From: Olleya namhaensis | Lineage (GTDB): Bacteria; Bacteroidota; Bacteroidia; Flavobacteriales; Flavobacteriaceae | Length of the DNA: 64,000 bases | Reading direction: 5' to 3' | Assembly (NCBI RefSeq): GCF_900114005.1 | Contig: NZ_FORM01000003.1 | Coordinates: 62,001-126,000 of the forward strand | Part shown: positions 10,933-38,706 of the stretch, one piece after another | Layout: each line of letters starts with the position of its first letter | Numbering within the stretch: the first letter of the stretch is position 1 | Made by a program: the position numbers and the translations under genes | The notes under the pieces: model-generated | What the model saw: the letters and a program-made list of their open reading frames with translations, nothing else | Told to the model about the DNA's origin: nothing | The model's database searches: none

Positions 10933-11991
10933 CTACGATTTAACAAGTGCCATAGTTTTTAACCTATTTATTTTACCTGAGGTTGTTTCCGCGAAAGCGG
11001 GAATAGAATATACAGTTTTAGGCGTTTGTATTGCTGTTAGGTCTAAAAAAACAGCAGGACTTAACGTATTGTCTTCCGCTTCAATTACCATTACAATGAC
11101 CTCTCCAAACGTCTCGTCTTTTTCTGAAGTTATAAAAAAACGAGGTCCAATTTTAGATTGAAGCTTCGCCTCTATCTGTTCCGGAAATAGTTTTACACCT
11201 CCGGAGTTTATAACATTGTCAATACGTCCTAACCACTCAAACGTTGTTTTAGAATGTAGTTTTACAACATCATTAGTTATAATTTGCGTTGTATTTAATT
11301 GTGGCGCATCAATAACCAAGCACTCCTTATCGTTTTGACTAATGGTTATATTTGGTAACGTTTTAAAGTAGTTTGTCGTTTTACCATTAATCTGTTTTAC
11401 CGCAATATGAGTAATGGTTTCCGTCATCCCATAAGTTTCAAAAATATTAGTTTTTAAACCTTTAAACTGTTGTTTTAATTTGGAAGACACTTGAGCACCT
11501 CCTACAATTAACGTTTTTATATTGCTTAATTTTTGAATTGTCTTTTCTGCTTGCGCAGGAATCATAGCACAAAAATCATAATGCTTTTTACTATTAAATT
11601 CCGGATTAGTTGTTGGTTGTACACAGTCTATTTCTAAACCTAAAATCATAGCACGTACCAACATCATCTTACCCGCTATATACGTTGCCGGAAGACACAG
11701 TAACGCAGTATTAATAGGTTGCAACTTAAAAAAATCTCCAGTAGCAATAGCCGAATGCACCATGGCTTGTTTACTTAATGTAATTGTTTTGGGTTGTCCC
11801 GTAGACCCTGATGTTTTTACTAAAATAAAGTCATTATCATCTAACCAATCTGATAAAAAATCACCGATTTCTTTTTCAAACAAATCACCTTCTTTAATAA
11901 AACTATACGCTACTTCTTTCAAGTCTTGAAAAGAAAAACTATTCCCGTTTAACTTAAATCGGTTATGTACTTTATTAAATGTTGGTGTCAT
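10933..11991 (-). CDS. menE: o-Succinylbenzoate-CoA ligase (MenE), short form
   Basis: 352 residues of the ANL adenylating superfamily. The P-loop is KTSGSTGQPK, the A5 motif ETYGMTET, the A7/A8 hinge LGRIDNVINSGG and the A10 lysine lies in TSGKINR. MenE activates o-succinylbenzoate to its CoA thioester in menaquinone synthesis. It is about 100 residues shorter than E. coli MenE; the missing part is N-terminal, which I believe is normal for Bacteroidota. It is the last gene of a tight operon with menC and a CPBP protease (3-bp gaps). A hairpin repeat (10986-11003) encodes PAFAET just before the A10 motif. Confidence 0.88.
   Translation of the reverse strand: MTPTFNKVHNRFKLNGNSFSFQDLKEVAYSFIKEGDLFEKEIGDFLSDWLDDNDFILVKTSGSTGQPKTITLSKQAMVHSAIATGDFFKLQPINTALLCLPATYIAGKMMLVRAMILGLEIDCVQPTTNPEFNSKKHYDFCAMIPAQAEKTIQKLSNIKTLIVGGAQVSSKLKQQFKGLKTNIFETYGMTETITHIAVKQINGKTTNYFKTLPNITISQNDKECLVIDAPQLNTTQIITNDVVKLHSKTTFEWLGRIDNVINSGGVKLFPEQIEAKLQSKIGPRFFITSEKDETFGEVIVMVIEAEDNTLSPAVFLDLTAIQTPKTVYSIPAFAETTSGKINRLKTMALVKS
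10986..11003 (+). repeat. CGAAAG hairpin repeat, copy 1 (in menE)
   Basis: TTTCCGCGAAAGCGGGAA: stem TTCCGC/GCGGGAA closing a GAAA tetraloop, on the plus strand inside the minus-strand menE gene. One of at least five near-identical elements in the menaquinone genes. Confidence 0.75.
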
Positions 11992-11994
11992 TAC

Positions 11995-13158
11995 TTAATC
12001 TAAAAGGTTACTATTTTCCTTTAATGGTGCTTCAATGTTTCCAAATAATTTCTCTTTCCAATTAGTCCATTTATAGACTTTCGCAAAAATAAATAGCAAT
12101 ATAGGAAACACTACAAATACTGGTATAATTACATCTCCAAAACCTGCTCCTGGTTCTGACACGTCTTTTAAAACTGAATGTGTTTGCAATACAGTCCAGT
12201 CTGCAGTAACCAATAACGCACCAAATAAATTATTTGCAGCATGAAACCCTAAGGCTAACTCCATCCCGTCGTCCATTAACGTTAGTACTCCTAAAAATAC
12301 ACCTGTACCAATATAATATACCATTACACCATAACCTAGCTTACCAACTTCAGGATTAAACACGTGCATACCTCCAAAAATAACAGAGGTTATAAGTAAT
12401 GGAACCCATTTTTTTCTTAAAGAAGTCACTAAGTTTTTATTAAATTCAGACTCAAAAGCATTTTTCTTTTTTAAAATATCAAAGACTAAAGCACCAACTC
12501 CAATTACAGCGCCAATTGCACCAATACCTTCCCATACATCAAGATCATAAATCATGATTATATTAGAACATATCGGAATAGACAACAGCGTAAAAATAAA
12601 TCCAAAAGGAAATTGATTACTAGTTGTAACCGTCCCGAAACCTTGCATTAAATACCCTCTAAAAATGTACTCTTCTAAACTTGTTTGAATTGGTATTAAC
12701 AATACTGCAATAACAGCTAAAATTAAAAAACGTTCTAACTCAAAATTCCAAACATAACTCTCAGGCGTCGTTAAATAGTCAATCAATATCATTCCTGAAG
12801 ATATTACACCCCAAAACAAAAAAGAAAACATAACACGTTTCCAATCTATTTTATTTCTAGCAGTCGTTACAGATAACAACGTTTGTTTATGCAAATATTT
12901 AACAGCAATAATTAACCCTATAAAACCAATAGCAAAGGATAGTAATAATAAAAACAAATTTAGATTAGGCTCTAAAATTGTCATCAATTGTTTTTCGTCC
13001 ATATTATAAGCGGATCCACCATTTGCCACATATTTAAGCATAGCTGCAACTGTAAACGGAATTTGCCCTAATGATGCAAAAACAGCAATAATTAAAGACC
13101 CTACTAGGTAACGCCAAAATTCGTGTTTAAAATTAAAAGCTTGTTTTATAAAATCCAT
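11995..13158 (-). CDS. CPBP family intramembrane metalloprotease (Abi/CAAX-type)
   Basis: 387 residues with about eight hydrophobic segments. The catalytic EExxxR motif is visible as SLEEYIFRG, followed by the histidine motifs FGGMHVFNP and FHAANN, as in CAAX-processing/bacteriocin-processing (CPBP) proteases such as Rce1 relatives. Substrates of bacterial members are mostly unknown. It is locked between menC and menE with 3-bp gaps on both sides, so it must be cotranscribed with menaquinone synthesis, though no mechanistic link is known. An internal hydrophilic loop (around residues 225-245, KKKNAFESEFNKN) makes it longer than the usual 220-300 residues. Confidence 0.85.
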   Translation of the reverse strand: MDFIKQAFNFKHEFWRYLVGSLIIAVFASLGQIPFTVAAMLKYVANGGSAYNMDEKQLMTILEPNLNLFLLLLSFAIGFIGLIIAVKYLHKQTLLSVTTARNKIDWKRVMFSFLFWGVISSGMILIDYLTTPESYVWNFELERFLILAVIAVLLIPIQTSLEEYIFRGYLMQGFGTVTTSNQFPFGFIFTLLSIPICSNIIMIYDLDVWEGIGAIGAVIGVGALVFDILKKKNAFESEFNKNLVTSLRKKWVPLLITSVIFGGMHVFNPEVGKLGYGVMVYYIGTGVFLGVLTLMDDGMELALGFHAANNLFGALLVTADWTVLQTHSVLKDVSEPGAGFGDVIIPVFVVFPILLFIFAKVYKWTNWKEKLFGNIEAPLKENSNLLD

Positions 13159-13161
13159 AGT

Positions 13162-14196
13162 CTATAATTTAAAATCCCAATTAGTATTGTTATTGTAATG
13201 TAATCGTCCTTGCTCTACTTCTAAAGGCGATGTAATATTATTAGTAAATAAACCGCCAGTACCAAGACCTTGTGGCAAATTACTTTGTTTTGTATACGTG
13301 TATTGCGCTATTGCATTTAGTCCAACATTACTTTCTAGCGCGCTAGTAATCCACCAACCTATCTTTTGTTTTTGGGCTAAAGCAATCCATGTATCACTAC
13401 CTTTAAAACCTCCAATAAAACTAGGTTTTAAAATAATGTATTGCGGATTAATAGCGTGTAATAAGGCTTCCTTTTTAGCATCATCAAACACACCAATTAA
13501 TTCTTCATCTAAAGCAATATCTAAAGGGGTTTGCTCGCAGAGTTTTGCCATTTCTGAAAACTGACCTGCTTGTATTGGTTGTTCAATAGAGTGTAAATTA
13601 AAGTCTGATAACTGTTTTAGTTTTTCTAAAGCTTCAGATGGTTTAAACGCACCATTGGCATCCACACGTAGTTCTATATCGCTTTCGCTGAAATTATGCC
13701 TGATACCCTTTAAAATATCCAACTCCGTTTGAAAATCTATGGCTCCAATTTTTAATTTTATACAACTAAATCCCGACGCTATTTTGTCTTCAATTTGTTG
13801 TTTCATAAAATCCTGATCGCCCATCCAAATCAAACCATTAATATCAATCGAAGCACTGCCACTTGTAAATTCTGAAGGAAATAAAACAAAAGGGGCTTGA
13901 CTCTCTAAACTTTTAAAAGCCATTTCAAGTCCTATTTGAATACTCGGGAATTCTCTATTCTTGGCATACAAATACGCTAACCCTTTTTCTATTTCTTGAC
14001 ATGTGTTGTGCAATTGCGTTTCGTAATCAGGTCTATCATCTGCACTTAAACCTCTTAAAATACCACATTCTCCAATACCACGTTTACCGTCATGTTCTAT
14101 AATAATAAACCAAGTTTCCTTAGTTTTTAAAACACCTCGAGAGGTACCACTTGGTCTTTTAAATTCTAAAATGTGTTTCTTGTAGCTTGCTTTCAT
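13162..14196 (-). CDS. menC: o-Succinylbenzoate synthase (MenC), enolase superfamily
   Basis: 344 residues from the ATG at 14196. The enolase-superfamily residues are all visible: KLKIG (catalytic Lys), RVDANG, SIEQPI and DEELIG (metal-binding Asp, Glu, Asp/Glu) and ILKPSFIGG (second Lys). It dehydrates SHCHC to o-succinylbenzoate. The reading frame stays open to a GTG at 14235, but an exact TATTTTTG -7 box at 14205-14212 lies inside that extension, so translation must begin downstream of it. It heads the menC-CPBP-menE operon and is divergent from an SDR gene. Some relatives are dipeptide epimerases; the men context settles the call. Confidence 0.88.
   Translation of the reverse strand: MKASYKKHILEFKRPSGTSRGVLKTKETWFIIIEHDGKRGIGECGILRGLSADDRPDYETQLHNTCQEIEKGLAYLYAKNREFPSIQIGLEMAFKSLESQAPFVLFPSEFTSGSASIDINGLIWMGDQDFMKQQIEDKIASGFSCIKLKIGAIDFQTELDILKGIRHNFSESDIELRVDANGAFKPSEALEKLKQLSDFNLHSIEQPIQAGQFSEMAKLCEQTPLDIALDEELIGVFDDAKKEALLHAINPQYIILKPSFIGGFKGSDTWIALAQKQKIGWWITSALESNVGLNAIAQYTYTKQSNLPQGLGTGGLFTNNITSPLEVEQGRLHYNNNTNWDFKL
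13680..13695 (-). repeat. CGAAAG hairpin repeat, copy 2 (in menC)
   Basis: Minus-strand AATTTCAGCGAAAGCG, in the sense orientation of menC, read as F-S-E-S. The core GCGAAAGC is identical to the copies in menD, menE and menF, but here it is in another reading frame. Confidence 0.7.
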
Positions 14197-14204
14197 AAGA
14201 AAAT

Positions 14205-14212
14205 CAAAAATA
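14205..14212 (-). promoter_or_regulatory. -7 promoter box of menC
   Basis: Minus-strand TATTTTTG fits TAnnTTTG exactly and ends 8 nt before the menC ATG, implying a leader of only a few nucleotides. No convincing -33 element. Confidence 0.55.
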
Positions 14213-14253
14213 CTTAAATAATTTTGTAATTTCACCTAAAAATATAGGATTAC

Positions 14254-15045
14254 ATGACGTTTAAAAATAAAGTAGTTTGGATTACTGGCGCCTCTAGCGG
14301 AATAGGAAAAGGGTTAGTTCTAGCCTTAGCTAAATTAGAGTGTCAATTAATAATTTCTTCAAGAAACAGTAGCACTTTAAATCAACTTAAGCAATTGTGT
14401 CCTAATCCAGATAATATTGCAGTCCTACCGTTTGATTTATTGGATTACAACCATATGAAACCAGTTGTAGCCCAAGCTATAAAACAGTATGGAAAAATAG
14501 ACTTGTTAATTAATAACGGGGGTATTAGCCAACGCGCCTTGATTATTGATACGGATATAAGTGTAGATAAAAAACTAATGGAAGTGGATTATTTAGGGAC
14601 TGTTGCTTTAAGCAAAGCGTTACTACCTCATTTTATTAAAAATCAAACTGGACATTACGCTGTAGTAACTAGTTTGATGGGTAAATTCAGTTCGCCTTAC
14701 CGTTCTGGATATTGCGGTGCAAAACATGCTTTACACGGTTTTTTTGATGCGCTACGTATGGAACACCAAAAAGACAATGTAAACGTAACACTAATCTGTC
14801 CCGGATTTGTAAATACTAATATTGCAAAAAATGCATTGATTGGCGATGGTAGTTTACAAAACAGCCAAGATGACGCCACAGAAAACGGATTACCTATTCC
14901 TGAGTTTTGTGACCGCATGATACAAGCTATTCAAAAAGAAAAATTTGAAGCTTATATTGGAAAAAAGGAAATTTTAGGCGTGTATTTAAAACGCTTTTTT
15001 CCAAAGCTATTGCATCGTTTTGTAATGAAGAGCCAAGTTAGATAA
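14254..15045 (+). CDS. SDR family NAD(P)-dependent oxidoreductase
   Basis: 263 residues of the classical short-chain dehydrogenase family. The cofactor loop is TGASSGIGKG, the NNGG motif is INNGGIS, and the catalytic triad is Ser in VTSLMG with Tyr/Lys in YCGAKHA. A C-terminal segment with LKRFFPKLLHRFVMKSQ is basic and amphipathic, as in DHRS7-like members associated with membranes. It is divergent from menC and converges with a metallo-hydrolase gene 3 bp away. Substrate cannot be told from sequence. Confidence 0.9.
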   Translation: MTFKNKVVWITGASSGIGKGLVLALAKLECQLIISSRNSSTLNQLKQLCPNPDNIAVLPFDLLDYNHMKPVVAQAIKQYGKIDLLINNGGISQRALIIDTDISVDKKLMEVDYLGTVALSKALLPHFIKNQTGHYAVVTSLMGKFSSPYRSGYCGAKHALHGFFDALRMEHQKDNVNVTLICPGFVNTNIAKNALIGDGSLQNSQDDATENGLPIPEFCDRMIQAIQKEKFEAYIGKKEILGVYLKRFFPKLLHRFVMKSQVR

Positions 15046-15048
15046 TAA

Positions 15049-15726
15049 TTACAACTCTAAACTTTCTCCTATTTCTAAAAGCATTAAGTCTTTGTCTTTT
15101 TCAAAAAACTTACGCTTAGCTGCTTCATGATCAATTTCTATATAACCAAACGTATCAAAATGATATCCTAAAATTTTATCGCACTCTACAAAATCACTAG
15201 CAATAATAGCATCATTAATACCCATTGTAAAATTGTCTCCAATAGGTAAAATAGCTAAATCCAATTTGGTTTGCATTGGGATCAACTTCATATCAAATGT
15301 TAGTGCTGTATCTCCTGCTATATAAATATTTTTATGTTCGCCTTCAAGAACAAAACCTCCAGGTTGTCCACCATAACTACCATCAGGAAAAGAAGAGGTG
15401 TGTATTGCATTGACATATTTTAAACTTCCAAAGTCAAAATCCCAGGTCCCACCATGATTCATTGGATGACCTTCAAAACCTAAATTCTGAAAGTGTGTTA
15501 CAATTTCAAAATTAGAAACAATGACTGCATCCGTACGTTTTGCGATTGCTTCCACATCCAAAATATGATCTTGATGTGCATGTGTCAACAATATGTAATC
15601 TGCTTTAATAGTATTAATATCAATATGAGCAGCTTTAGGGTTTCCTGAAATAAATGGATCTACTAAAATATGTGTATCCTCTATTTGAAGACCTAAGCAG
15701 GCGTGACCGTAAAAAGTAATTTTCAT
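15049..15726 (-). CDS. Metal-dependent hydrolase, UPF0173 type (metallo-beta-lactamase fold)
   Basis: 225 residues. The metal motif HxHxDH appears as THAHQDH, with later ligands in GDTAL and GYHFDTF. Family members (YtkL-like, UPF0173) are annotated only as metal-dependent hydrolases and lack the second RNase Z features. It is the third gene of the menB-menA block, 13 bp after menA; a role as hydrolase in quinone metabolism is possible but unproven. It ends 3 bp from the convergent SDR gene with no terminator between them. Confidence 0.85.
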   Translation of the reverse strand: MKITFYGHACLGLQIEDTHILVDPFISGNPKAAHIDINTIKADYILLTHAHQDHILDVEAIAKRTDAVIVSNFEIVTHFQNLGFEGHPMNHGGTWDFDFGSLKYVNAIHTSSFPDGSYGGQPGGFVLEGEHKNIYIAGDTALTFDMKLIPMQTKLDLAILPIGDNFTMGINDAIIASDFVECDKILGYHFDTFGYIEIDHEAAKRKFFEKDKDLMLLEIGESLEL

Positions 15727-15739
15727 GGTAATGTATTTA

Positions 15740-16642
15740 TTACAGTAAATGTCCGATACCTAATAGTAAACTTAACAATACTGTGGTTAATGCTAACTTT
15801 TTTAATTCTGGATCAAAATCTTTAGGGTTAGTAACCGATCTGACCTTTTTCAAATGTAATCCTAAAGGAATATACGCTACAAAGTAAATCAGATTTAAAG
15901 GTGATTTATAGTAAATAACACCAAATAAAACTGATAATACAATAGCTGTTATAATTAAAAAATAATGATATTTTTTAGCCTTTTCTGCACCTAATTTTAC
16001 AGCCAATGTTATTTTGTTTGCTGTTACGTCAGATACAATATCTCTCATGTTATTTAGGTTAAGTACCGCTGTACTTAATAATCCTATTGCAACTGCAGGT
16101 AAAACAACAATAAAATCTATCTGTTTAGCAAATAAAACATAACATCCTAAAACACTTACTAAACCAAAAAAAACAAAGACAAAAATATCGCCCTTACCTT
16201 TATAGCCATACGCATTGTTTCCTACGGTATATTTTATAGCTGCATAAATAGAGATTCCTGCTAGCACAAAAAATAATAGTGCTAACCACAAATATTCAGC
16301 TTTAAAAGACACATAAAGTAAAATTAGAGTAAGCACTACGCAAATAATTACGTTTAATCTAATAGCTTTATACATGTCCTGATGTGTAATAGCGCCAGAT
16401 TGTAAAGCACGAACAGGTCCAATGCGTTGGTCGTTATCCGTCCCTTTTACACCGTCTCCATAATCGTTAGCTAAATTTGATAGTATTTGATAACTAAGCG
16501 TTGTTAATATAGCAAACACTAGTATTACACTATCAAAAACACCATTATATTTTGCTAAACAGGCTGCAACAATAATTCCAGAAATAGATAGTGGCAATGT
16601 GCGTAAGCGCATTGCCGACAACCATTTGGTAAGGTTCTTCAT
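15740..16642 (-). CDS. menA: 1,4-Dihydroxy-2-naphthoate polyprenyltransferase (MenA)
   Basis: 300 residues, about nine transmembrane helices, UbiA superfamily. Both Asp-rich motifs that bind the prenyl diphosphate are visible: NDYGDGVKGTDND near residue 65 and NNMRDIVSDV near residue 195. It attaches the isoprenoid tail to dihydroxynaphthoate in the membrane, giving demethylmenaquinol. It starts 3 bp after menB, so the two are translationally close. Confidence 0.93.
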   Translation of the reverse strand: MKNLTKWLSAMRLRTLPLSISGIIVAACLAKYNGVFDSVILVFAILTTLSYQILSNLANDYGDGVKGTDNDQRIGPVRALQSGAITHQDMYKAIRLNVIICVVLTLILLYVSFKAEYLWLALLFFVLAGISIYAAIKYTVGNNAYGYKGKGDIFVFVFFGLVSVLGCYVLFAKQIDFIVVLPAVAIGLLSTAVLNLNNMRDIVSDVTANKITLAVKLGAEKAKKYHYFLIITAIVLSVLFGVIYYKSPLNLIYFVAYIPLGLHLKKVRSVTNPKDFDPELKKLALTTVLLSLLLGIGHLL

Positions 16643-16645
16643 ATA

Positions 16646-17485
16646 TTATGGAATCCATTGTTTTGGAAAATTAGGCTTACGCTTTTCTAAAAACGCATCC
16701 CTCCCCTCTTTAGCTTCGTCTGTCATATAAGCTAATCGTGTCGCTTCTCCAGCAAATACTTGCTGCCCAACCATACCATCGTCTGTTAAATTCATGGCAA
16801 ATTTTAACATCTTAATAGACGTTGGCGATTTCTCTAAAATTTCTTGTGCCCATTGGTATGCAGTAGCTTCTAACTCGTCATGAGGTATCACAGCATTTAC
16901 CATTCCCATGTCATAAGCTTCTTGCGCAGAGTAATTTCTTCCTAAGAAAAATATTTCTCTAGCTCTTTTTTGACCTACCATTTTTGCTAAATAAGCAGAT
17001 CCATAACCACCATCAAAACTGGTAACATCGGCATCCGTTTGTTTAAAAATAGCATGTTCTTTACTTGCTAAAGTTAAATCGCAAACAACATGTAAACTAT
17101 GTCCTCCACCAACTGCCCAACCAGGAACCACTGCTATAACTGCTTTAGGCATAAATCTAATTAAACGTTGTACCTCAAGTATATTTAATCTATGGTAACC
17201 ATCTTCCCCTACGTAACCTTGATGGCCTCTTGCCTTTTGATCTCCACCAGAGCAAAAACTATACACGCCATCCTTAGTAGATGGTCCTTCTGCGGATAAT
17301 AACACAACACCTATTGAGGTATCTTCTCCTGCGTCATAAAAAGCATCATACAATTCCTTTGTAGTTTTTGGTCTAAAGGCGTTTCTAACATTTGGTCTAT
17401 TAAAAGCAATACGTGCAACACCATTACATTTACTGTAGGTAATGTCTTCGTAATCTTTGGCTTTCTTCCAATTTATATTATCCAT
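16646..17485 (-). CDS. menB: 1,4-Dihydroxy-2-naphthoyl-CoA synthase (MenB)
   Basis: 279 residues of the crotonase family. The oxyanion-hole segment SGGDQKARG, the GGGHSLHVVCDL motif and SFDGGYGS, with the Asp typical of MenB, are all readable. It cyclises o-succinylbenzoyl-CoA to DHNA-CoA (Dieckmann-type). It heads the menB-menA-hydrolase block; the 289-bp leader contains a near-consensus TATTTTTA box about 25 nt before the ATG. Confidence 0.95.
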   Translation of the reverse strand: MDNINWKKAKDYEDITYSKCNGVARIAFNRPNVRNAFRPKTTKELYDAFYDAGEDTSIGVVLLSAEGPSTKDGVYSFCSGGDQKARGHQGYVGEDGYHRLNILEVQRLIRFMPKAVIAVVPGWAVGGGHSLHVVCDLTLASKEHAIFKQTDADVTSFDGGYGSAYLAKMVGQKRAREIFFLGRNYSAQEAYDMGMVNAVIPHDELEATAYQWAQEILEKSPTSIKMLKFAMNLTDDGMVGQQVFAGEATRLAYMTDEAKEGRDAFLEKRKPNFPKQWIP

Positions 17486-17605
17486 AAAATTTCTTTAATT
17501 TTTCAAGTCATAAAAATACGGAATAAATCTTTTTTAAGAAGCGATATTCAAGGTTAACTACCGAATACTTTTTGGCTAAAAAAACAAGATGAGAGAGCGT
17601 CAATA

Positions 17606-17628
17606 CTTGTAAATACTTGATTTACAGG
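17606..17628. promoter_or_regulatory. Operator-like inverted repeat in the menB / paralog-1 intergenic region
   Basis: TGTAAAT-ACTTG-ATTTACA is a perfect 7-bp inverted repeat, extended by one G-T and one C-G pair. It lies in the only sizeable gap (17486-17774) between two divergent genes, without a U-run, so an operator fits better than a terminator. Confidence 0.4.
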
Positions 17629-17742
17629 TGTTAAATGTAGGAAAAATCAACTCAGTTTTTGGTTTTAAACGTTGAAATCAGTCTTTAATCTATTTGTTAT
17701 CACAACTTTAGCAATTAGCATAATACAATTAAAAACAACTTT

Positions 17743-17750
17743 TATATTTG
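17743..17750 (+). promoter_or_regulatory. -7 promoter box of the first SNRINKYS-family gene
   Basis: TATATTTG, exact TAnnTTTG match, 24 nt before the ATG at 17775. No exact -33 TTTG; TTTAGC lies in the expected region. Confidence 0.6.
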
Positions 17751-17774
17751 TAGCATATTAAAATCCCTCTATTA

Positions 17775-18200
17775 ATGAATGTAACCAAGTCTAACCTATA
17801 TAATTCAATTTCAAAAGAACACAATCTCTCCCTAGGTGATTTATTTCTTTTTGAAAATGTAGCTGTAATTCAAGTTCATGAAGGCATGCACGTAGATATA
17901 GACTCTTTACAAGATTGCTTAGAAATCTTATATGATTTTTATGAAAAAAGAAAAAAACCGTTTAGTTTAATTTCTAATAGAATAAATAAGTACTCTATTG
18001 AAGTTTTAGACTATCCAAAATATAGTAGTTTATTTGATAATATATGTATGTATGGTATTATCGGATATTCAAGCTTTAGTGAAATGAATATTTCAATTGA
18101 AAAACGATTTAGTAAAATGAAAACATTAACATTTAATACCCTTAATGAAGCTTTTACTTATTCCAATACAGTTGCACAAAATAAAGTAAGTATTAATTGA
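17775..18200 (+). CDS. Uncharacterised protein, SNRINKYS family, paralog 1
   Basis: A 141-residue soluble protein without signal peptide or membrane segment. It shares with the next plus-strand gene the layout: GDLFLFENVAVIQVHEG, helix, SNRINKYSI (residues about 74-82), strand, helix, FNTLNEAF near the end. The alternating strand/helix pattern and length resemble SpoIIAA/STAS-like proteins, but this is inference from pattern only. It has its own promoter (17743) and a strong terminator (18246). Confidence 0.6.
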   Translation: MNVTKSNLYNSISKEHNLSLGDLFLFENVAVIQVHEGMHVDIDSLQDCLEILYDFYEKRKKPFSLISNRINKYSIEVLDYPKYSSLFDNICMYGIIGYSSFSEMNISIEKRFSKMKTLTFNTLNEAFTYSNTVAQNKVSIN

Positions 18201-18245
18201 TAGCGTAAATTAGTCCCCCCAAGTTACTATTATATAGAAACTTAT

Positions 18246-18293
18246 AAGTTACTTTTTAAGAGCCCTAAACTCTTTTTAAGTAACTTTTTTTTT
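18246..18293 (+). terminator. Terminator after SNRINKYS paralog 1
   Basis: Arms AAGTTACTT and AAGTAACTT, plus AAGAG/CTCTT, form a long stem with a 3-by-3 internal loop, followed by a run of nine T. It isolates paralog 1 from paralog 2. Confidence 0.85.
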
Positions 18294-18376
18294 GGAGTTA
18301 AACCTAAAAAACATAATTTATATCGAAAACTATTTAGTTAACAACCACATAACTACATTAAAAAAATTTCATGCGC

Positions 18377-18384
18377 TAAATTTG
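18377..18384 (+). promoter_or_regulatory. -7 promoter box of the second SNRINKYS-family gene
   Basis: TAAATTTG, exact consensus, 18 nt before the ATG at 18403. No TTTG at the -33 distance. Confidence 0.55.
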
Positions 18385-18402
18385 CTATAAGCTATTAAAC
18401 TT

Positions 18403-18822
18403 ATGAAAATTGTAGATTCCACACTTGCTGACCAAATTAAAGATGTATACATCTCTGATTATGGTAACTTCTATTTTTTAGACGATGTTATAATTTCAGA
18501 ACTTGACGAAGGTATTACCTACACTTGGGAAGAAGCTAAAAAAGTTATTGAGGCAGCAAAAGCATTTTACGGTCCAACAATAAACGTAAGTTACGTGTCC
18601 AACCGTATAAATAAATACTCTGTAAAACCATCTGATTGGTTAAAATTTTATCGTGGTAACAATAGACTAAATGCCTATGCTGTAGTTACCAAAAGTGAAA
18701 ACAGTTGGTTTAATGCTTTAATGGAAAAATTATTTTCTAATGTAGAGATTGAACGCTTTGATAATTTATACGAGGCTATTGACTGGGCAAAACGCCTTAG
18801 TAGTGCTAATCTTGCTTCTTAA
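18403..18822 (+). CDS. Uncharacterised protein, SNRINKYS family, paralog 2
   Basis: 139 residues, soluble. It aligns over its whole length with the preceding gene: YGNFYFLDDVIISELDEG, a helix (WEEAKKVIEAAKAFY), VSNRINKYSV, then a strand and FDNLYEAIDWAKRL. Divergence outside the motif is high, so this is an old duplication. Its last 17 bp overlap the 3' end of the convergent cvfB-like gene. Function unknown; a STAS-like fold is possible. Confidence 0.6.
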   Translation: MKIVDSTLADQIKDVYISDYGNFYFLDDVIISELDEGITYTWEEAKKVIEAAKAFYGPTINVSYVSNRINKYSVKPSDWLKFYRGNNRLNAYAVVTKSENSWFNALMEKLFSNVEIERFDNLYEAIDWAKRLSSANLAS

Positions 18823-19645
18823 GATAAATTCCATCAGGTTTTAACTCCACTAATTTTTGTCTGTATAACGTCCCTATTGCCTTTTTAAATGTTTTTTTAC
18901 TCATTTGTAAAAGGTCTTTAATTTTTTCAGGACTAGATTTATCTGTTACAGCTAAAAACCCATTGTTATCCGTAAGTTCTTGCATAATCTTATCAGCATT
19001 AGGCTCTATATTTCTATAGCCTATTTCTCCTAATCCAATATCTAACTTATTTCCTGGTCTTACTTTTTTAACAATACCTTTTAGTTTGTCTCCAACACTT
19101 AAGTCTTGAAAAATACTATCCTTGTATATTAATCCTGTATGTATATTATTAACAATAACATTCATCCCTAAATCACTTGGATGAGATACAATAATATCCA
19201 CTTGATCAAACTGCGCTACTGTTAATTCTTTATTATCTAAAAACTGATTAGTCTTACTAGATGCAACTAAACGCTCTGTAACATCGTCTAAATAACAACG
19301 TACTAAGTACCAACCACCCTTTTTCATAGGAAATGCTTGCTCTTTAAATGGGCAAAACAATTCTTTTACCAATCCAAAATCTAAAAAGGCACCAAAATTA
19401 GATACTTCATTACATCGTAATACAGCAAACTCCCCGTTAATTATAAACGGTTCTGTAGTTGTTGCGATAATACGTTCGTCATTATCTAAATAAACAAAAA
19501 CTTCTATTTTATCCCCAATTTCAAAATGTTCTGGAACATATCTGTTAGGTAATAAAACTTCATTATTATCTGCATCACCTAAAAATAATCCAGGTTCTGT
19601 ATCTCTTAAAATTTCAAGCGTATTGAATTCTCCTATTTGTATCAT
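18806..19645 (-). CDS. CvfB-type S1 RNA-binding protein
   Basis: 279 residues resembling CvfB/YitL: three S1-like OB domains (about residues 1-60, 65-130 and 140-210, with NFGAFLDFGLVKELFCPF and KVRPGNKLDIGLGEIGYR) and a C-terminal winged helix (KIKDLLQMSKKTFKKAIGTLYRQKLVEL). Family members bind RNA and influence virulence or stress gene expression in firmicutes; role here unknown. A TACATTTG box ends 4 nt before the ATG, suggesting a leaderless transcript. Its 3' end overlaps the convergent paralog-2 gene. Confidence 0.82.
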   Translation of the reverse strand: MIQIGEFNTLEILRDTEPGLFLGDADNNEVLLPNRYVPEHFEIGDKIEVFVYLDNDERIIATTTEPFIINGEFAVLRCNEVSNFGAFLDFGLVKELFCPFKEQAFPMKKGGWYLVRCYLDDVTERLVASSKTNQFLDNKELTVAQFDQVDIIVSHPSDLGMNVIVNNIHTGLIYKDSIFQDLSVGDKLKGIVKKVRPGNKLDIGLGEIGYRNIEPNADKIMQELTDNNGFLAVTDKSSPEKIKDLLQMSKKTFKKAIGTLYRQKLVELKPDGIYLKKQD

Positions 19646-19649
19646 TTTG

Positions 19650-19657
19650 CAAATGTA
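19650..19657 (-). promoter_or_regulatory. -7 promoter box of the cvfB-like gene
   Basis: Minus-strand TACATTTG (exact TAnnTTTG) is separated from the ATG by CAAA only, placing the transcription start at or next to the A of the start codon. Confidence 0.55.
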
Positions 19658-19664
19658 AGCATAT

Positions 19665-19698
19665 AAAAAAAGCGTTACAGAACTGTAACGCTTTTTTT
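19665..19698 (-). terminator. Terminator after the DUF2853 gene
   Basis: Perfect palindrome: arms AAAAAAAGCGTTACAG and CTGTAACGCTTTTTTT with a 2-nt centre, 23 bp past the DUF2853 stop. It also lies immediately upstream of the cvfB-like promoter. Confidence 0.9.
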
Positions 19699-19721
19699 AT
19701 ATATTTTTTTCTATTTTTTTT

Positions 19722-20066
19722 CTATTTGTTGTAAATCGCTTCTTTTTTGAAGTGTTTTGCCAATAAATAATAAACAACTGCTCTGTATTTATTTTTATTT
19801 GATCTTCCATAAGTTTCAATTACAGAATCTATAGCTTTATCTAAATCTGCACTATCTGCTAAACCTAACTTTTTAATTAAAAAATTATTTTTTACAGTAG
19901 CTAATTCTGATTCGTCAGAACCTGACACTGTCGCTGCATCTTTATTATATATAGATGGTCCACAACCAATAGTAACTTTAGTTAAAAAATCCATATCTGG
20001 ATTAACTCCACATTTATCCTTTAAATCTGCAGCGTACTTTACGATTAAGTCATCACGTTTACTCAT
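19722..20066 (-). CDS. DUF2853 family protein
   Basis: A 114-residue all-helical protein. The opening MSKRDDLIVKYAADLKDKCG and the C-terminal RAVVYYLLAKHF match DUF2853, a small family common in flavobacteria and of unknown function. It is monocistronic: a near-consensus TATCTTTA box lies upstream and a perfect terminator downstream. Confidence 0.85.
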   Translation of the reverse strand: MSKRDDLIVKYAADLKDKCGVNPDMDFLTKVTIGCGPSIYNKDAATVSGSDESELATVKNNFLIKKLGLADSADLDKAIDSVIETYGRSNKNKYRAVVYYLLAKHFKKEAIYNK

Positions 20067-20190
20067 AATTTTTTTATAATTTAAATTAATAATTTTTAGC
20101 TTACTAAAGATACAATTTTTCTCGGTCTCTTTTTTAAGCCAAAATAAATATAATTACAATTACGATTAACGGTCAATTTCTCCGATTAAA

Positions 20191-21942
20191 CTATTTAACA
20201 AATTGAAAATAATCTAATAGTATACTATCATTGTCTCTTGCTGGCGTCATAACCTCCAATAACTTAGGTTGCTCGGTTTTATCGTAAAAATGCTCTAGAG
20301 CATTTTCTAATTGGTCTGGGTCGGTTACTTGGGTGTATTCTAAACCATACATTTGACACAAGTGCTTTGAAGACAGATTATGTTTGGTTTCGAAAAAATA
20401 ATCAAAGTTATCTGTGTTTTTATGTCCTGGTAGGATTCTAAAAATCCCTCCTCCTTCGTTATTTATAACTATAATCCTAAAGTTTTTAGGTATGTAGTTA
20501 TTCCACAACGCATTACTATCGTAAAAAAAGCTTAAATCTCCAGTAATAAAGACGGTTGGATTATCTCTTGTTATTGATGCTCCAATTGCGGTACTAGTAC
20601 TTCCATCAATTCCACTAGTGCCTCGATTACAAAAAACGTCCAACGTTGGATTAATATCAAAAAGCTGTGTATATCTAATAGCAGAACTATTACCAACTTG
20701 TAATTGCGTATGATTTGGTATACTTTTTAGTAACACATCAAATGCTTTAAAGTCAGAAAATGGTATCAACCCCATGTATTCCAAATGCTTTTCTCTTCTA
20801 ATATCCATTTGGTTTTTCCAAAATGGATTATAATCACTTTTTAAAGCTTTAGTTAATGGTATAAAAGATTGGAAAAACGAGTTTATTGATTGCTTAAACA
20901 ACTTATTTAGCACAAAAAAGGTGTCATTTGCCCCATTTTCTGCTACATGCCAATGTTGTTTTGGCTTATGGGTTCTTAAAAATTTCTTTATTTTTTTTGA
21001 TACTATTAAGCCTCCAAAGGTTAATAGTATTTCTGGTTGTAAGCCTTGTAACTCTTGTTCAGAAAGCGCACCAATTAATTTATCAATACTTGGACAAATA
21101 TTATCGTGATGTAAGTTAGACGTACTTTCGGTTAATATCAATACACTTTCATCTTCTGCTAAAACATCAATAAAGTGCTGCTCTACGCTGTTTGGAGCTA
21201 AAACACCTACTAATACTAACTTCTTTTTGGAGTTATTCCAAATTTCAGCGAAAGCGTTATAATCTTCACTACCTATATTAGGTTTTGGTACGGGCACTAT
21301 TTCTGGAGTTACCGTAAGTGCATCCATCATTTGATATAAAGGCTCATCAAACGGAATATTAACATGTACAGGGCCTTGTGTTGTTATTGCTATATTAAGG
21401 GCTTTATTAATTTCGGTTTCGTTGTATTGTTGGATTCCTTGTTGTAGCCCTAAAAAGCGTTCGATTTTATTCTCAATACTCTTCATTATTGGCAAGTCTT
21501 CCGCGAAAGCGTTTTCTTTTTCAGGATTTAAATCTTGCTTTAAATTAGCCGAATATTGTATGTGATTTTTAAAAACGTTTTCTTGATTTATAGTCTGTCC
21601 ATCTCCTATTCCGACCAAGTACTTAGGTCTATCTGCACTTAAAACCACTAACGGAACATGGCTGTAATACGCTTCTGACACTGCTGGATAATAATTTAAC
21701 AACGCACTACCAGAAGTACAAACCACTGCTACGGGATGCTTTATTTGTTGTGCGATACCTAATGCGAAAAAAGCTGCGCAACGCTCGTCCACAATACTAT
21801 AACATTTAAAAAAAGGATCGTGAGTAAATCCAATGGTTAATGGCGCATTTCTGCTTCCTGGAGACAGTACAATGTGTTGGATATTCTTGGCTTTACAAAG
21901 CTGAATTACCGTTTGCGCTAAAGGTATTTTTGGGTGTTTCAT
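20191..21942 (-). CDS. menD: SEPHCHC synthase (MenD), thiamine diphosphate enzyme
   Basis: 583 residues of the ThDP-dependent family. The N-terminal PYR domain has SPGSRNAPL and DERCAAFFALG (catalytic Glu); the C-terminal PP domain has the ThDP-Mg motif GDLSFFYDSNALW followed by NNEGGGIF. It condenses isochorismate with 2-oxoglutarate, the first committed step of menaquinone synthesis. It starts 42 bp after menF and has its own TATTTTTG box at 21951. Two CGAAAG hairpin repeats lie in the coding sequence (21243 and 21498), encoding NAFAEI and NAFAED. Confidence 0.95.
   Translation of the reverse strand: MKHPKIPLAQTVIQLCKAKNIQHIVLSPGSRNAPLTIGFTHDPFFKCYSIVDERCAAFFALGIAQQIKHPVAVVCTSGSALLNYYPAVSEAYYSHVPLVVLSADRPKYLVGIGDGQTINQENVFKNHIQYSANLKQDLNPEKENAFAEDLPIMKSIENKIERFLGLQQGIQQYNETEINKALNIAITTQGPVHVNIPFDEPLYQMMDALTVTPEIVPVPKPNIGSEDYNAFAEIWNNSKKKLVLVGVLAPNSVEQHFIDVLAEDESVLILTESTSNLHHDNICPSIDKLIGALSEQELQGLQPEILLTFGGLIVSKKIKKFLRTHKPKQHWHVAENGANDTFFVLNKLFKQSINSFFQSFIPLTKALKSDYNPFWKNQMDIRREKHLEYMGLIPFSDFKAFDVLLKSIPNHTQLQVGNSSAIRYTQLFDINPTLDVFCNRGTSGIDGSTSTAIGASITRDNPTVFITGDLSFFYDSNALWNNYIPKNFRIIVINNEGGGIFRILPGHKNTDNFDYFFETKHNLSSKHLCQMYGLEYTQVTDPDQLENALEHFYDKTEQPKLLEVMTPARDNDSILLDYFQFVK
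21243..21258 (+). repeat. CGAAAG hairpin repeat, copy 3 (in menD)
   Basis: TTTCAGCGAAAGCGTT on the plus strand, antisense to menD, where the complement encodes NAFAE. Stem CGC/GCG around the GAAA loop, with the flanking TTTCA conserved in copies 2 and 5. Confidence 0.7.
21498..21515 (+). repeat. CGAAAG hairpin repeat, copy 4 (in menD)
   Basis: CTTCCGCGAAAGCGTTTT on the plus strand, antisense to menD, encoding NAFAED on the gene strand. Only about 255 bp from copy 3. Confidence 0.7.
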
Positions 21943-21950
21943 GTGTTATA

Positions 21951-21958
21951 CAAAAATA
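21951..21958 (-). promoter_or_regulatory. -7 promoter box of menD
   Basis: Minus-strand TATTTTTG, exact consensus, in the 42-bp menF-menD gap and 8 nt before the menD ATG. It suggests menD can be transcribed independently of menF. Confidence 0.5.
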
Positions 21959-21984
21959 CGAAACCCAAATCCTAAATAAAACCA

Positions 21985-23100
21985 TTATAAGAGGTTTTTA
22001 ACAGTCTTAGATTTTGCAACGGTTTCTTCCCATTCGTTTTCAGGTATAGAATCTTTTGTAATTCCCCCACCAACATAGATTAATGCTTGGTTATCCTTAA
22101 TTTGCAGACATCTTAAGTTAACAAACAAATGCGATATTGTTTTTACGGATCCGTAAGCGTTATTCTCTACGTTTCTGCGATTGGTATTTCTTGTTTTGGC
22201 TTGTTTAATATTTATTTCGCCTAAAAAACCGGTATAATATTCACGATTATAGCCTTCGTTTTTTAATATAAATTGTTTAGCGTTTTCTTTAGGTAAACCG
22301 CAAACTGCAGGTGTTGGATGTAATTTAGCAATAACAGACTGCAATCCATTTTCAGGCTTTAATAGTCCAGAAATCTTAGTTTGCAAATGCAATAAATTCC
22401 CTGCTTTGATAGTCTCTGTAGTGCCCAAATTAATACTACTGACTGATGCCTCTAAACTACCTACTATAAAATCCGTAACTAATTGCTGTTCTTCTTGTTC
22501 CTTGGACTGCCACTGGACATCAACTGTGTTTTTGTATTGTTGCGTACCCGCAAGAGACATGGTTAAAAAGCGGTTGCCTTCTACTTTTAACAACGTCTCA
22601 GGCGTTGCACCTAGCCACAGTCCTACTTTTGGATGATACCAACAATACACCATTGCTGTTTTATAAGTCGCTAACAGTTTTTTAAATAGTAAAAGCGTAT
22701 TGTCTTCAGGAAAAGTTTCGGTTTCAACTCGAGATATCACTACTTTTTTAAAACTACCATCTTCAATTTCGGAAATAGCTTTCTCTACTATTTGGATATG
22801 TTTCGCTTTCGCTGAAACATTTATCGTGCTACTTAATTGGCTTTTAGACTGATCCGGTTTACTATCAAACAAACAATCTATTACTTCGCTTTTATCTAAA
22901 GGAAATAATACCGTATTATCTTCATTTTTAAAAGGTGAAAACACAAAACCGCTAGCCTCAAAATTTGTCGTAAAATGAAGCTGATTGCTATCCTGAAGTA
23001 TTGCTTTTACTGCTAATTGATTGGGCTTTTTATACGCTACAAAAGGAAGCTGATTTGTAAACTGCTGAGCAAGCTGTTCAAAAAAATCTGAAGACGTCAT
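21985..23100 (-). CDS. menF: Isochorismate synthase (MenF/EntC type)
   Basis: 371 residues with a chorismate-binding fold in the C-terminal 270. Motifs: SFKKVVISR with the catalytic lysine, LGATPETLL, HPTPAVCG, GFLGEI and GGGITKDSIPENEWEE with metal-binding glutamates. It isomerises chorismate to isochorismate, feeding MenD encoded just downstream. EntC-like siderophore enzymes look similar, but no siderophore genes are here. A CGAAAG hairpin repeat (22801) encodes VSAKAK between the N-terminal region and the catalytic domain. Confidence 0.92.
   Translation of the reverse strand: MTSSDFFEQLAQQFTNQLPFVAYKKPNQLAVKAILQDSNQLHFTTNFEASGFVFSPFKNEDNTVLFPLDKSEVIDCLFDSKPDQSKSQLSSTINVSAKAKHIQIVEKAISEIEDGSFKKVVISRVETETFPEDNTLLLFKKLLATYKTAMVYCWYHPKVGLWLGATPETLLKVEGNRFLTMSLAGTQQYKNTVDVQWQSKEQEEQQLVTDFIVGSLEASVSSINLGTTETIKAGNLLHLQTKISGLLKPENGLQSVIAKLHPTPAVCGLPKENAKQFILKNEGYNREYYTGFLGEINIKQAKTRNTNRRNVENNAYGSVKTISHLFVNLRCLQIKDNQALIYVGGGITKDSIPENEWEETVAKSKTVKNLL
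22801..22818 (-). repeat. CGAAAG hairpin repeat, copy 5 (in menF)
   Basis: Minus-strand GTTTCAGCGAAAGCGAAA, in sense orientation of menF, read as V-S-A-K-A-K. Same TTTCAGCGAAAGCG core as copies 2 and 3. Confidence 0.7.
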
Positions 23101-37875: not shown

Positions 37876-38706
37876 CTAGTATTTTCCTAATGGCTTAAAG
37901 CTAGTAACTCCAAACTTCTTTGCTTCTGCTTTCGCAGCTGGCGACAATGCTGTTAAGTTATCAATACGTGTTTGATTTGCAGGGTGAGTACTTAAAAACT
38001 CTGGTGGCGCCTCTCCACTACTTGCTGCTGCCATACGTCTCCATAGGTTTGCAGCCTCATCTGGGTTATAACCAGCAATAGCTGTTAAATACAATCCAAT
38101 TTTGTCTGCTTCCGTTTCATGACTTCTACTAAAAGGTAACATCCCTAAAACATTAGATCCAACACCGTAATATTGGTTAAACGCATTTCTTGTTTGATCA
38201 TCTTTAATGGCAACATTTCCAGCTACAGCTAAACCTTGTTGTAAATATGAAGCACTCATACGTTGCTGACCATGATTTGCTAGTGCGTGCGCAACTTCAT
38301 GTCCCATAATGGCTGCTACCGCAGATTCGTTTTCTGCTACAGGTAAAATCCCTGTGTAGAATACAATTTTACCTCCGGGCATACACCAAGCATTGATAAT
38401 ATCTTCATCAATTAGGTTATACTCCCACTTATAATCATTCAAATATCCTTGTTGACCATTTGCATTTAACCAACGTTCTGCAGCAACTGCTATACGCTGA
38501 CCAACACGCTTAATCATATCAGCACGAGCCGTACCTGTTTCTACTTTGCTTTCTGTCAACACTTGATTATATTGTGCAAATGCAGTCGGAAATAATTGAG
38601 AGTTAGACACAAATGCTAGCGTCTTTTTTCCCGTAAACGGATTTGTTGCACAAGACATAAACATCACTAATGTTAATGTCACAACTATTGTATTCTTAAA
38701 TTTCAT
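37876..38706 (-). CDS. M48 family metalloprotease lipoprotein (LoiP/YcaL-like)
   Basis: 276 residues from the ATG at 38706, where a lipoprotein signal begins (LTLVMFMSC). The open frame extends 16 residues upstream without family support. The catalytic zinc motif is HEVAH (about residue 134, in MGHEVAHALANHG), with the third ligand Glu in SHETEAD. Family members are periplasmic outer-membrane-facing proteases such as E. coli LoiP and YcaL (quality control of outer-membrane proteins). It stands alone with a terminator downstream. A degenerate CGAAAG hairpin lies near the 3' end (37926). Confidence 0.9.
   Translation of the reverse strand: MKFKNTIVVTLTLVMFMSCATNPFTGKKTLAFVSNSQLFPTAFAQYNQVLTESKVETGTARADMIKRVGQRIAVAAERWLNANGQQGYLNDYKWEYNLIDEDIINAWCMPGGKIVFYTGILPVAENESAVAAIMGHEVAHALANHGQQRMSASYLQQGLAVAGNVAIKDDQTRNAFNQYYGVGSNVLGMLPFSRSHETEADKIGLYLTAIAGYNPDEAANLWRRMAAASSGEAPPEFLSTHPANQTRIDNLTALSPAAKAEAKKFGVTSFKPLGKY
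37926..37940 (-). repeat. CGAAAG hairpin repeat, degenerate copy 6 (in M48 gene)
   Basis: Minus-strand AGCTGCGAAAGCAGAAG: stem CTGC/GCAG around the same GAAA loop but without the TTTCMG flank. It may be chance; listed because it keeps the loop and in-frame position (KAEAK). Confidence 0.35.

Follow-up and report, generated by a model that had tools for sequence, protein, structure and literature searches.

What keeps the same short word in place in four genes of menaquinone synthesis, on both strands and behind different peptides? The question is raised by a 64,000-nucleotide stretch of the Olleya namhaensis genome (contig NZ_FORM01000003.1, positions 62,001 to 126,000; this whole stretch is called the window here), in which GCGAAAGCG occurs five times against 0.13 expected. 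Allowing up to two mismatches, a search of the window for TTTCMGCGAAAGCG likewise gave 5 matches, compared with 0.44 expected from shuffles. Four of them are exact, at 10986 (+), 13680 (-), 21243 (+) and 22804 (-), and the fifth, at 21498 (+), deviates in its first base. The original prediction had drawn attention to these copies, and its positions were right for 10986, 13680, 21243 and 21498; the copy it placed at 22801 is real and is the same site as 22804, its start being shifted by a 3-base extension. A sixth copy, reported near 37926, has the core GCGAAAGC with no TTC 5′ of it and is not a member. The peptides AFAE, SAKA and FSES are encoded by the sites as had been described. The answer developed here is that the word belongs to a small hairpin, conserved as DNA across the genome and possibly read in its folded form.

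The genome that holds the window (G000; 3.52 Mb in 36 contigs) contains 80 copies of the 16-mer TTCMGCGNAAGCGNWA, one per 44 kb on average, and none of the reversed pattern. With up to two mismatches allowed, there are 155 sites in this genome, 50 of them exact, compared with 41 for the pattern read backwards. In an 864-kb sample of G000, CCGCGAAAGCG was found 29 times where an order-4 Markov model, trained on the same 864 kb, expects 0.03, well over the background against which the original prediction had wished to see it counted; the word also tops the over-represented 10-, 11- and 12-mers. Chance and codon bias are ruled out by these Markov counts, by the reversed controls and by the orthologous conservation described below. 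Hardly any single-base variants of TTTCCGCGAAAGCG occur outside positions 1, 5 (C or A) and 9, and the fixed word is TTCMGCGNAAGCG. The 13-mer is present 48 times in the sample, and alignment of the flanks revealed an A three bases past the word in 42 of these 48 sites. The unit is 16 nt long and consists of TTC, a 3-bp stem (mostly CGC/GCG, with several other Watson-Crick stems), a GNAA loop and NWA. A second over-represented word, GGGAGGAGGCC, has 8 copies in the same sample against about 0.01 expected.

Evidence for the fold came from sites in which the usual stem letters are replaced. Among matches to TTC-NNN-GNAA-NNN-NNA with stems other than CGC in 1.66 Mb of Olleya sequence (G000, O. 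marilimosa or G250, and G252), 35 of 301 were fully paired, compared with 2-3% when six other 5′ triplets were used; in 75 men loci from outside Olleya, the figure was 10 of 307. At the basal pair, matches from 10 Olleya genomes with neither the left C nor the right G were Watson-Crick in 116 of 130 cases (T-A 51, G-C 39, A-T 26; the others were A.A 8, T.T 4 and G.A 2), where the marginals predict about 35%. Repeated on 12 motif-rich genomes from other genera, the search gave 53 of 71 (again about 35% expected), unevenly between genomes (2/6 in G173, 1/3 in G012). The middle pair, without its left G and right C, was Watson-Crick in 80 of 112 cases vs. 44% from the marginals, and the basal pair was formed in 70 of the 80 with the middle paired vs. 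14 of the 32 with the middle mismatched (the middle-pair and marginal-expectation tallies were copied by hand from listings). Compensatory change is also seen between orthologs: two loci besides menE swap C-G (or A.G) and T-A. Of 46 directed comparisons of non-CGC GNAA hairpins in Olleya orthologs, 18 are identical and in 9 more the ortholog has a different hairpin or the main site. Together, the comparisons show that the hairpin itself has been kept by evolution even where its letters change. The hairpin that had been described with a GAAA loop therefore stands as a hairpin; GAAA and CGC/GCG are merely the commonest letters within the TTC, 3 bp, GNAA, 3 bp, NWA unit. In the 1.66-Mb sample, GNGA loops were not clearly enriched (2 full stems with NNA). 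Loops other than GNAA were rejected as part of the unit, those with TTTA or TTCA being in excess without clear conservation in the Olleya ortholog test.

The sites are also stable at orthologous places. Of the 24 G000 sites that could be aligned with O. marilimosa, 19 have the same letters in both genomes and 2 others are M-variants, compared with 13.4% identity for GC-rich control 13-mers and 15.9% for all control 13-mers, pooled over genome pairs. Eight Olleya sequence sets, of which three were single men loci, gave 227 directed comparisons, in which the same site can recur over several species. The site was identical in 160, variant in 16, compensated in 7, lost in 39 and gapped in 5; control 13-mers were identical in 11.7%. 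The ortholog tests skip alignments of fewer than 250 columns or more than 97% identity and sites lying no more than 12-15 columns from where an alignment ends, and the counts include orthologous copies from several genomes, which makes the p-values nominal; the effects themselves are large. Sense, antisense and intergenic sites of G000 are kept alike in O. marilimosa (7/7, 11/12 and 4/5, respectively, in a hand tally), and islands of identity mark the sites within diverged intergenic DNA too. Where the word is missing from an ortholog, the difference is mostly by substitution, with some gaps, and two gains in relatives (L095 and L112) are substitutions of near-sites. One of these can be followed from the window, where a synonymous near-site (VASAE) lies at about 49 kb; G209, from another genus, has a full site there (L112). 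Since sense, antisense and intergenic sites fare equally, this comparison of orthologs argues for selection on the sites as DNA rather than as mRNA. The same conservation, with the stem covariation, upholds the earlier view that DNA and not protein is conserved and that the tetraloop hairpin is the relevant form.

Placement tells a similar story. With a simple open reading frame (ORF) caller, 35 of the 48 sites in the G000 sample lie within ORFs and 13 outside, non-coding DNA making up 8% of the sequence; the sites are enriched between genes. Genic sites number 25 of 31 in O. marilimosa and 5 of 11 in G252. Two of the six reading frames account for 30 of the 35 genic G000 sites, with peptides of the xSAKAx type from the sense strand and of the xA(F/Y/S)AEx type from the opposite one. 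Gene strand made no difference in the three genomes (30 sense, 35 antisense), and this balance makes a role in mRNA unlikely. For the three window sites in MenD and MenF, a protein-level cause is excluded, since the encoded peptide falls in permissive loops, in stretches that are variable or gapped in homologs, with no conserved stretch, as had been anticipated. Orientation is neutral with respect to replication as well: leading-like sites number 32 of 59 in G209 and 33 of 70 in G168, both single-contig relatives, and a replication-directed signal of the Chi or KOPS kind was rejected on these counts. Clustering of sites was not significant in three genomes (p 0.08, 0.11 and 0.11; the length of G250 was entered in the clustering and replichore analysis as a rounded 3.3 Mb). 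Several intergenic G000 sites (L009, L017, L018) stand directly past a terminator-like inverted repeat with a T-run. Another site (L044:15424) overlaps the codons of an RLRGK peptide, which we take to be DnaJ-like, and is retained where O. marilimosa (L122) and G209 (L103) align with it.

All 10 Olleya genomes carry the 16-mer, with 25-80 copies each and 508 in total vs. 3 for the reversed form. Among 249 Flavobacteriaceae genomes, TTTCMGCGNAAGCG was present in 101, a few having 25-75 copies and most none, and its reversed control never exceeded 2 in any of them. Outside the family, we found at most 4 16-mers per genome in 238 genomes of a 247-genome class-wide sample. The word is thus a feature at family level that some genera employ, with a patchy spread between them. 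The 238 non-family genomes together show a weak excess of 16-mers (74 matches vs. 31 reversed). A phage origin was rejected, the 17-mer being found in 27 viral stretches vs. 31 with its reversed form.

What might such a hairpin do? Because the structure covaries in both gene orientations, the folded DNA would be the thing that is read. Judging from these alignments and counts, we tentatively favour a selected folded-DNA site that is read by a host protein, perhaps in DNA uptake or recombination. The more general proposition, that in some Flavobacteriaceae mini-hairpins of single-stranded DNA form a code spread over the genome, with a putative protein reading their fold and loop rather than a duplex sequence, most likely to recognise self DNA in uptake or recombination, appears to us evenly balanced. 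The protein would read a folded single strand of DNA, with TTC and NWA flanks and a GNAA DNA tetraloop, at times when one strand or the other may become accessible. Neutrality of orientation towards both genes and replication would suit a process that exposes either strand (incoming DNA, resection or extrusion), and would make uptake or recombination, with their incoming or resected single strands, the likeliest moment. There, the hairpin might label DNA as self and either load or guide the protein that processes it; it would be the folded equivalent of the uptake sequences found in Neisseria and Haemophilus.

Several observations weigh against this proposal. The chief one is density: known uptake signals occur near one per kb (one per 1-2 kb), and a 16-mer every 44 kb is sparse by that measure. 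Pairing is not absolute: the basal position often accepts A.G and has T.G in some sites, and one-sided losses are found there too. Losses account for the 39 of 227 directed comparisons given above, ortholog copies were counted several times with nominal p-values, G168 has an absolute-strand imbalance of 45:25, and the 1.66-Mb Olleya sample has an excess of TTC-stem hairpins whose loop is TTTA or TTCA. The uptake or recombination process itself stays putative; this role is our best guess, and a weak one, with chromosome maintenance as its main rival.

Under this rival, which we consider possible and doubtful, a nucleoid, segregation, replication-restart or repair protein would bind the hairpin, extruded or at forks, at sites spaced chromosome-wide. 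Tens of copies per chromosome, spread around it and kept at orthologous places, would suit such a function, as would a density similar to that of known nucleoid sites. However, chromosome-organisation sites of the Noc, MatP or SlmA type are biased towards or away from the origin or terminus, and the main argument against maintenance is that no clear bias of this kind is seen (17, 10, 13 and 19 sites in successive quarters by distance from dnaA in G209; 15, 26, 13 and 16 in G168), nor any replichore orientation. Patchiness between genera would be unusual for a housekeeping function, and self-extrusion of a 3-bp stem is probably unfavourable. A duplex site for a dimeric protein, with the matching arms as two half-sites and no fold, could account for inverted repeats about a 4-bp centre, for the strong preference for CGC/GCG and for the tolerance of A.G. 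It remains unlikely, since the arms change jointly to other pairs (T-A, G-C and A-T in the 130 cases above), other stems are enriched too, and neither the outer flanks (TTC/NWA) nor the GNAA loop is symmetric.

Reading during transcription has been considered in two forms. A hairpin in the non-template strand, recognised by a NusG/RfaH-type factor, has a parallel in ops, likewise a protein-read mini-hairpin with a G..A loop (PMC5995543). The antisense sites, as frequent as sense sites and kept as well within gene bodies, make this quite unlikely. An RNA hairpin with a GNRA tetraloop, active in transcripts, is compatible with GNAA and would be the more stable fold (the consensus is predicted at -4.0 kcal/mol as RNA vs. 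a modest -2.7 as DNA), but we judge it very unlikely given the absence of sense bias, the lack of clear enrichment for GNGA loops and the rarity of G.U-type basal pairs (T.G 16 and G.T 0, against 116 Watson-Crick). These T.G pairs come from a set of 20 basal-pair matches, in which T.T was found 4 times and G.G never.

Finally, a mobile REP-like (repetitive extragenic palindromic) or palindromic repeat spread by copying, one of the origins first proposed, would explain a dispersed hairpin with many copies, and a few intergenic sites do match alignment gaps in a relative. This is largely refuted and in our view highly improbable: orthologous places are stable, the observed gains are substitutions, and flanks are not shared between sites. 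We also searched 249 family genomes for Y1_Tnp (PF01797), the domain of the RAYT family. It matched in 97, with a distribution that does not follow the motif, and was not found in eight motif-bearing genomes (G171, G209, G168, G068, G091, G173, G012 and G243). This part of the argument is limited by six others, G000, G084, G134, G153, G220 and G240, which do have matches (two in G000, best E 1e-6). A RAYT/REP system was rejected on the absence from those eight, and an insertion element on the predominance of substitutions, with some gaps, between orthologs.

The five window sites illustrate the variation that the unit allows, three fitting NWA in full and two being one base off. The first, TTTCCGCGAAAGCG followed by GGA (10986..11002, + strand), lies antisense within a menE-like gene over the peptide PAFAET; its extension has the A of NWA and lacks the W. 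Its basal pair is C-G in G000 and O. sediminilitoris vs. A-T in O. marilimosa and G256. In the menC-like gene, TTTCAGCGAAAGCG with ATA (13677..13693, - strand) is in the sense orientation, encodes NFSESD and has identical letters in O. marilimosa. The menD gene has two antisense sites. One, TTTCAGCGAAAGCG with TTA (21243..21259, + strand; NAFAEI), is identical in O. marilimosa, an M-variant in G256 and O. sediminilitoris, and absent from G171, O. aquimaris and one Olleya metagenome-assembled genome (MAG). The other, CTTCCGCGAAAGCG with TTT (21498..21514, + strand; NAFAED), does not end in A and is found at the same place in G171, O. marilimosa and an Olleya MAG (L128). The last, TTTCAGCGAAAGCG with AAA (22801..22817, - strand), is sense within a menF-like isochorismate synthase gene, where it encodes VSAKAK; it is identical in O. 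marilimosa and absent from G256 and G171. The menD and isochorismate synthase genes score above the NCBIfam cut-offs, while the best models for the other two, menE and menC, are both under theirs, hence the suffix. The impression that the sites gather in men genes was right only in part: a simulated P of 0.027 for at least 4 of 50 exact sites within 11.8 kb anywhere in the genome (0.022 in a repeat with 92 sites, a number assumed and not measured) makes the concentration only mildly unusual, and the word is genome-wide rather than a feature of the men cluster. An Rfam scan of the window gave a single match, away from the hairpin sites, to 6S-Flavo RNA (RF01685; 56942-57068, - strand; 88 bits vs. 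a gathering score of 85).

To our knowledge, dispersed chromosomal signals are read as duplex sequence or form part of mobile repeats, and the hairpin, if read as we suggest, would be a new kind. Stem letters that change in step, with the fold, loop and flanks kept, would mean a structural DNA code used chromosome-wide, with a reader yet to be discovered, and the patchy occurrence between genera would offer a natural presence/absence contrast for finding it. In our literature searches, three forms of the word matched no paper and, judged on titles and the starts of abstracts, no description of the hairpin word was found; GCGAAAGCG and Flavobacteri do co-occur in papers, whose titles and abstract openings describe no such signal.

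Among known systems, REP/RAYT elements resemble the Olleya unit in being dispersed hairpins with a conserved 5′ flank, found in both orientations. Here the flank is TTC next to a covarying stem, unlike the GTAG-type flank of REPs, and the unit differs further in its 3-bp stem, its mostly genic position in two of three genomes and the stability of its orthologous places. The Rickettsia-type palindromic element, also raised originally, is a long palindrome inserted in-frame into genes; it does not fit a unit of only about 16 nt whose orthologs mostly differ by substitutions. DNA uptake sequences and uptake signal sequences (Neisseriaceae, Pasteurellaceae) are, like the Olleya word, over-represented relative to base composition, strand-neutral, lineage-limited and tolerated within genes. 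They are far denser than 80 16-mers in 3.52 Mb; the Olleya unit covaries as a hairpin and its uptake role is putative. HIP1 of cyanobacteria (GCGATCGC) has a link to methyltransferases and is perfectly palindromic over its 8 bp, in contrast to a fixed Olleya word, TTCMGCGNAAGCG, that is no such palindrome and whose loop is fixed, its flanks asymmetric and its stem variable. HIP1, too, is a highly over-represented short word (PMC4390886). The core letters are identical to those of the DNA mini-hairpin d(GCGAAAGC), which is extraordinarily stable. Papers on d(GCGAAAGC) treat it, in their titles and abstract openings, as a tool or a physical object and not as a genome-wide bacterial signal. In ops (PMC5995543), RfaH of the NusG family reads a DNA mini-hairpin with a loop from G4 to A7 and a C3:G8 pair, on the non-template strand during transcription; the Olleya unit, with its GNAA loop and covarying stem, instead occurs in both orientations and in tens of copies, mostly in gene bodies. 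Strand-specific as it is, ops with RfaH would be the nearest known precedent for the reading of so small a DNA hairpin.

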